Made by a program: the position numbers and the translations under genes
Part shown: piece after piece, positions 1-39,900 of the stretch
Numbering within the stretch: the stretch's first letter is position 1
How the letters are laid out: each line of letters begins with the position of its first letter
Assembly (NCBI RefSeq): GCF_004766055.1
Contig: NZ_SPQR01000007.1
Coordinates: 1-64,000 of the forward strand
DNA length: 64,000 nucleotides
Direction: 5' to 3'
From: Desulfosporosinus sp. Sb-LF
Lineage (GTDB): Bacteria > Bacillota > Desulfitobacteriia > Desulfitobacteriales > Desulfitobacteriaceae
Notes under the pieces: model-generated
What the model was told of the DNA's origin: nothing
Database searches by the model: none
The model's input: only the letters and a program-made list of their open reading frames with translations

Positions 1-86
1 TCCCATACCGAACACGGAAGTTAAGACCTTCAGGGCCAAGAATACTTGGGGCGCAGGCCCCTGGGAACGTAGGTCATCGCCAGGTA
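1..86 (+). rRNA. rrf: 5S ribosomal RNA, 3' part (cut by window start)
   Basis: The window opens inside a 5S rRNA. Visible are the loop C block ATACCGAACACGGAAGTTAAG-like sequence (positions 5-25), the domain gamma segment with TACTTGGGG and CCCCTGGGA, and the 3' closing strand GTCATCGCCAGGTA ending near 86. The 5' half lies before the window. No 16S or 23S is visible here, so this is probably the end of an rrn operon. The sequence is uninterrupted between GTTAAG and CAGGGCCAAG, which makes it the reference for judging the insertions in the next copy. Confidence 0.93.
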
Positions 87-128: not shown

Positions 129-187
129 TTAGAACGAACGATTTTTAAGCATTTAAACGTCTATGGGGTCGGAGTTCCACCCCTTCG

Positions 188-251
188 GGTCCACATTGCT
201 GGAGTTTTCGTTATGGGTTGCCGTGTGGCGAAAGTCTCGCACGACTTTCGT
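188..251 (+). repeat. Insertion unit 1 in the 5S-like copy
   Basis: A ~64-nt unit with an imperfect CCACATTGC/GCCGTGTGG stem and a perfect CGAAAGTC/GACTTTCG stem. It is homologous to unit 2 at 272-336 and sits just 5' of the loop C block of the 5S. Confidence 0.75.
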
Positions 252-271
252 ATACCGAACACGGAAGTTAA

Positions 272-336
272 GGATCCACACTGCCGGAGAGTGCGTTGTA
301 AGTCGCAGTGTGGCGAAAGGCTCATTCGCCTTTCGT
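272..336 (+). repeat. Insertion unit 2 in the 5S-like copy
   Basis: A ~65-nt unit with a perfect CCACACTGC/GCAGTGTGG stem and a perfect CGAAAGGC/GCCTTTCG stem. Against unit 1 the second stem shows a compensatory T-A to G-C change, so the paired structure seems to have been maintained. It sits just 3' of the loop C block. Confidence 0.75.
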
Positions 337-400
337 TTCAGGGCCAAGAATACTTGGGGCGCAGGCCCCTGGGAACGTAGGTCATCGCCGGGTAACCAGC

Positions 401-39824: not shown

Positions 39825-39900
39825 TGGTGGAGGTAAGCGGAATCGAACCGCTGGCCTCTAAAATGCGAATCTAGCGCTCTCCCAGCTGAGCTATACCCCC
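39825..39900 (-). tRNA. tRNA-Ala(CGC)
   Basis: The complement folds as a full cloverleaf of 76 bases with encoded CCA. Acceptor GGGGGTA pairs with TACCTCC and shows the G3-U70 pair that specifies alanine. The anticodon loop TTCGCAT gives CGC (codon GCG). The T loop is TTCGATT. Confidence 0.95.

Follow-up and report, generated by a model that had tools for sequence, protein, structure and literature searches.

Pseudogenes of 5S rRNA with large insertions have been reported by Stepanov and Fox (2021; PMC7812874), in a text that names Desulfosporosinus orientis and D. youngiae. The same study describes an expanded 5S rRNA of Desulfitobacterium dichloroeliminans (NC_019903.1, complement 2241573-2241816) and suggests that segments may enter real 5S genes via recombination with pseudogenes; the origin of prokaryotic 5S expansion segments is left open there (PMC7812874). 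Another related system is that of the REPINs, short repeats that are mobilised by RAYT transposases (Bertels and Rainey, 2011; PMC3116915).

The locus analysed here is the end of an rRNA operon of Desulfosporosinus sp. Sb-LF, at the start of a window of 64,000 nucleotides (NZ_SPQR01000007.1, positions 1 to 64,000 of the forward strand). Behind the normal 5S gene and its terminator, at the distal operon end, lies a second 5S-like segment, which is probably a 5'-truncated 5S rRNA pseudogene with two insertions of a double-hairpin unit, here called U. A host of this sort is already known in kind (PMC7812874); within the open-licence literature, what appears new is the U inserts with their dispersal and nesting, and not the pseudogene that carries them. 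The main text of Stepanov and Fox, unlike the present analysis, does not present the inserts as a repeat occurring beyond rRNA (PMC7812874).

Layout of the locus

The contig end falls inside the operon, and the window starts there; elsewhere in this genome, further contig ends carry complete 5S genes. The features of the locus are the following:

1-85, + strand: normal 5S rRNA gene of the operon, 3' part, its 5' part being lost at the contig end (Rfam RF00001, 50.3 bits, 5' truncated)
92-127, + strand: operon terminator hairpin with a 16-bp stem, a 4-nt loop and a T-rich 3' arm (fold -21.5 kcal/mol, z -8.9)
165-186, + strand: what remains of the 5' part of the probable 5S pseudogene, from the helix II/III region (identified against the genome's own complete 5S)
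188-252, + strand: insert 1, located in loop C, a double-hairpin U unit (stem 1 191-199/220-228; stem 2 229-236/243-250)
253-272, + strand: 5S core TACCGAACACGGAAGTTAAG, loop C and helix III 3' strand, identical to the normal 5S (window 6-25)
273-337, + strand: insert 2, a U unit after helix III (stem 1 276-284/305-313; stem 2 314-321/328-335)
339-393, + strand: 5S core, 3' part of the probable pseudogene (98% identity to functional 5S of the same genome)
399-434, + strand: terminator hairpin, second copy, following the probable pseudogene (fold -21.2 kcal/mol, z -7.2)

Rfam matches to mir-5045 at both terminators scored far under the gathering score and were discarded. The sole tRNA of the window is a tRNA-Ala with anticodon CGC, at 39825-39900 on the - strand.

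The three 5S blocks (165-186, 253-272 and 339-393) stand in order, as an earlier reading made from the sequence only had recognised. Sequence 5' of the helix II/III region, as found in the normal 5S, is missing from the copy, and relatives show the same 5' boundary, near GGGGTTCCACCC, in 88 distinct site-A contexts. That same reading could not recognise the 5' strand of helix I; when the copy is set against the genome's complete 5S genes, this strand proves to be truly absent and not just hard to see, and it is also missing from every other Desulfosporosinus unit seen. The Rfam model RF00001 leaves the copy (163-400) unmatched even at E <= 1, whereas positions 1-85 score 50.3 bits. An expanded functional 5S would be a complete core interrupted by structured segments; here, the segments are structured and the core is incomplete. 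Several traits of the pseudogene class are found, namely the loss of a terminal part, the large insertions and a place beyond a normal 5S, on the far side of a terminator, and in these the copy is like the pseudogenes described by Stepanov and Fox in the text on that class (PMC7812874).

The sequence-only reading had put forward an expanded 5S rRNA, with a pseudogene as its main alternative, and it is the alternative that proves to be the better reading. That the copy is a functional expanded 5S, or belongs to a 5S in two pieces that is completed in trans, with the U modules as tolerated segments extending from loop C and from the base of helix III, appears very improbable. The core blocks are almost intact, the stems of U covary (see below), U belongs to the full-length expanded 5S of D. 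dichloroeliminans, and loop C positions 34-37 are given in the text of the cited study as being among the least obstructed sites (PMC7812874). However, the 5' strand of helix I is missing, as it is in the other Desulfosporosinus units seen, the partner of helix II is lost, a strong terminator lies ahead, sister copies are cut at varying points, and the second site (57-58) is, according to the same text, blocked by uL5 (PMC7812874). Moreover, conversion would account for the intact core. Identity of the 3' core to functional 5S from the same genome is 0.970, compared with 0.891 to functional and 0.883 to pseudogene copies of other genomes, and a likeness to the own genome as high as this was reached by 1 of 2000 permutations of the genome labels (7 genomes). 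The core has evolved in concert with the functional 5S of its genome, and gene conversion from the latter would explain why it looks intact, so that function is not needed to explain it. Sister copies elsewhere in the same genome have decayed. Judging from the terminator ahead of it, the pseudogene copy is probably not transcribed.

The rRNA operon ends of the own genome give a varied picture, as some lack U and others have truncated units or from one to three of them. In this genome, where U was seen at rRNA operon ends only, two ends (C3 and C25) have no relic, and several others retain only a truncated relic, cut at different points. At one end (G000:C22; L016, about 360-700), two more decayed 5S remnants lie downstream of the U-bearing one and form a decay series. 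These ends bear on the idea that the dead 5S units are retained because the repeated 3' end of 5S, with its terminator, provides a fallback stop for transcription, or that U works as an RNA element in the trailer of the operon. Copies of the terminator follow the units, which recur at operon ends genus-wide; against this stand the ends without a relic or with only a short one, as well as the dispersed copies of U away from rRNA, and we consider such a role improbable.

Structure of the U unit

The resemblance between the two inserts noticed in the sequence-only reading is well founded, as they align without gaps with a local score of 32, where 2000 shuffles reached at most 14, and they share 74% identity across the paired-and-loop part. 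Both can fold into two hairpins, as had been claimed, and stability is above chance for insert 2 (z -3.8) and not for insert 1 (z -1.1), owing to a T-C mismatch and a G-T pair in stem 1 of the latter. The compensatory change also holds, at pair 48-57 of the unit, where insert 1 has T-A and insert 2 has G-C. Insert 2 is matched at 89.3 bits by model R1, with which U was searched for in other genomes.

The position of the inserts, described at first as flanking loop C, needs refining. Insert 1 is inside loop C, on its 5' side, and insert 2 lies past the 3' strand of helix III, so that the intervening piece consists of loop C and that strand. A symmetric duplication of a module around helix III finds no support, as single, tandem and other arrangements exist; tandem arrays of the types U-U and U-TTCG-U occur, and there is a third U site near the 3' end in other species. 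Identity between the inserts of one unit (0.82) is similar to that between units (0.81-0.85), a comparison limited to 7 units. A separate, site-specific ancestry for the inserts A and B was considered and is unsupported, since 60 of 300 label swaps among these 7 units were as extreme.

An alignment of 38 distinct 65-nt copies gives U two stems, of 9 and 8 pairs, and RNAalifold independently yields the same two-stem structure. In this alignment, 98.1% of paired cells are standard pairs (93.0 +/- 0.5 after shuffling), 5 pairs are altered on both sides, and doubly changed cells number 32, against 8.9 +/- 2.2 in shuffled data, with none of 500 shuffles as high. The signal is lost when the partner is shifted by 1-3 columns. 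The inserts are real structured modules, with stems that covary. Covariation is usually taken as selection on structure. Template switching during replication, which has been proposed to create and repair hairpins (PMC8794818), can also yield covariation, so that the covariation of U is no proof of an RNA function; selection on an RNA could be what conserves the stems, and template switching would be an alternative cause. A point of caution for other loci is that when a gene resembling rRNA contains a covarying RNA-like structure, this structure may stem from a repeat and have nothing to do with the ribosome. Neither U nor the nests of palindromes described below received a name from Rfam. In several species, a second module (TTCGCCACGAAGTGTTCC...GGTGGCTCGGCGATACTGTCCACCGGACACTATCGTG) is nested in the loop of hairpin 2 of U (L026, L029, L031, L033, L041 and L046).

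Distribution of U within and beyond rRNA operons

The segment is matched in 33 of 61 genomes (the own genome and relatives), mostly of the same genus, and model R1 finds U in 28 of these 61. In an order-wide set of 74 genomes, U is limited to one family, in which four genera carry it, and the 28 genomes from other families yielded none. When the genome collection was scanned for an exact pattern, 117 stretches were returned, all titled Desulfosporosinus except two from one Bacillota MAG.

Beyond the rRNA operons, one case is a 4.93-Mb chromosome contig (genome G009) with 66 U matches, 54 of which were taken as lying away from rRNA clusters, a few of these still bearing 5S flanks. Copies with equal scores are found along this entire chromosome and, in two other genomes (G014 and G001), on many separate contigs. 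The orientation of the dispersed copies of G009 (L201-L249) differs between the chromosome halves, with 3 on the + and 30 on the - strand in one half and 14 and 7, respectively, in the other (Fisher p 1.4e-5; several cut points were tried, and every p was < 1e-4), which may reflect a link to replication.

The flanks of the dispersed copies are complementary to each other. A first measure, applied to one genome, gave a weak result (10 of 200 permutations did equally well), because GGCC is self-complementary. In a second attempt with another measure, none of 1000 permutations was as good for 48 distinct flank pairs, and none of 2000 when the GGCC flanks were removed; the pairs partly share ancestry, and these counts are not strict probabilities. 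The complementary flanks place U in the apical loop of another hairpin. Empty versions of one host palindrome were found in 11 of the 19 genus genomes searched, with no matches for a control, and none was found in the own genome of the window. One palindrome (CACTCGGCC..TGGCCAGCGG) coexists in empty and U-filled forms. A nest of some 570 bp in one genome (G014) contains two U units, and a terminal stem of 14 bp closes it (z -7.0, 20 shuffles). Nested intergenic palindrome arrays are seen in three genomes (L300:672-1275 in G014, L301 in G001, and the flanks of L207-L249 in G009); they have inverted repeats at their termini and include U together with several further hairpin modules. Among the open-licence literature, no paper describing these repeats was found.

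As a tentative possibility, U may be a self-nesting mobile structured element that, in the form of single-stranded DNA or RNA, enters hairpins at their apical loops and builds the nested intergenic palindrome arrays, the dead 5S copies being a reservoir from which recombination could lead to an expanded 5S. Alternatively, U might not be mobile at all, and local unequal recombination and conversion between operon ends would have multiplied it, with the stems kept by template switching during replication. The U-U and U-TTCG-U tandem arrays resemble products of unequal recombination, and template switching is a proposed maker and repairer of hairpins (PMC8794818); copies of identical score on many contigs of G014 and G001 and over the whole G009 chromosome, together with the empty host palindromes, argue against this account, which we regard as unlikely.

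A mobile U would have counterparts elsewhere. Fungal mitochondria contain short double-hairpin elements, inferred to be mobile from their scatter in these organelle genomes. The hairpin elements of sponge mitochondria are likewise short, with mobility inferred from a scattered distribution; unlike U, they reside in organelle genomes, and the likeness is one of form and distribution (PMC2800124). U is like the REPINs in being short, dispersed, hairpin-forming and apparently non-autonomous, and unlike them in being a double hairpin with two different stems (Bertels and Rainey, 2011; PMC3116915). A Y1/RAYT transposase was considered as the mover of U and rejected, the RAYT-like genes of the genus being flanked by other repeats; there was no U match in the RAYT-gene regions examined, and no RAYT-like gene was found in the genome of the window. 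The RAYT-like Y1 transposase genes of the genus (L291-L298) are mostly flanked by a different repeat, with GAACCGTCCCC or related letters.

U in the expanded 5S rRNA of Desulfitobacterium dichloroeliminans

The sequence-only reading had pointed to expanded 5S rRNAs of some Clostridia, and the link can be made concrete, as U is one of the two inserts of the published D. dichloroeliminans 5S (PMC7812874). Model R1 matches positions 2241582-2241646 on the minus strand of a genome of one contig (G063; 3,624,449 bases), which from the agreement of the coordinates appears to be the strain of the published 5S. The match falls within the published coordinates, and the inserts of the window are therefore homologous to one segment of that expanded 5S. 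The DNA at these coordinates is a 244-nt full-length 5S with helix I intact and two inserts, of which the 3' one is U. The expanded 5S of D. dichloroeliminans LMG P-21439 (Fig. 2C of PMC7812874) is thus like the window copy in that one insert is U; it differs in its full length, its intact helix I and the location of U near the 3' end, whereas the window copy has U in loop C and after helix III. Immediately downstream of the expanded 5S lie a terminator and another U-bearing 5S remnant. These data are consistent with the route through recombination with pseudogenes suggested in the text of PMC7812874.

The following sequence of events can be proposed. A 5'-truncated 5S pseudogene would have been left at the distal end of the rRNA operon, behind the terminator, and the family-specific repeat U may then have been inserted at two loop or junction positions. 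The copy would not be made into ribosomal 5S, and gene conversion from functional genes would keep its core intact-looking. U itself would spread as a structured repeat, via an enzyme or via replication template switching, and would preferentially be found in hairpin loops. Finally, recombination between a pseudogene and a real 5S gene may create an expanded 5S, as in D. dichloroeliminans. One published 5S expansion segment is traced to U, a repeat of dead 5S copies and of dispersed palindrome loops in Desulfosporosinus. This gives a hint at the source of rRNA expansion segments, with a testable path from repeat to pseudogene and, through gene conversion, to expanded rRNA; if U is indeed a self-nesting mobile element, it would offer a traceable route from a mobile repeat to an rRNA expansion segment.

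How often U lies within a full-length 5S was assessed over 339 distinct U contexts, with a check for a 5S 5' end in the 330 nt upstream (an earlier version with 75 nt was blind to insertions close to the 3' terminus); in 116 contexts, the upstream sequence was shorter than 330 nt, so that these could be judged only in part. A 5S 5' end upstream with no recognised terminator between it and U was flagged by pattern in 17 of the 339. On reading, 16 of these proved to be a complete 5S and a terminator followed by a truncated unit. The remaining one, and the only context of the 339 inside a full-length 5S, is the published D. dichloroeliminans case.
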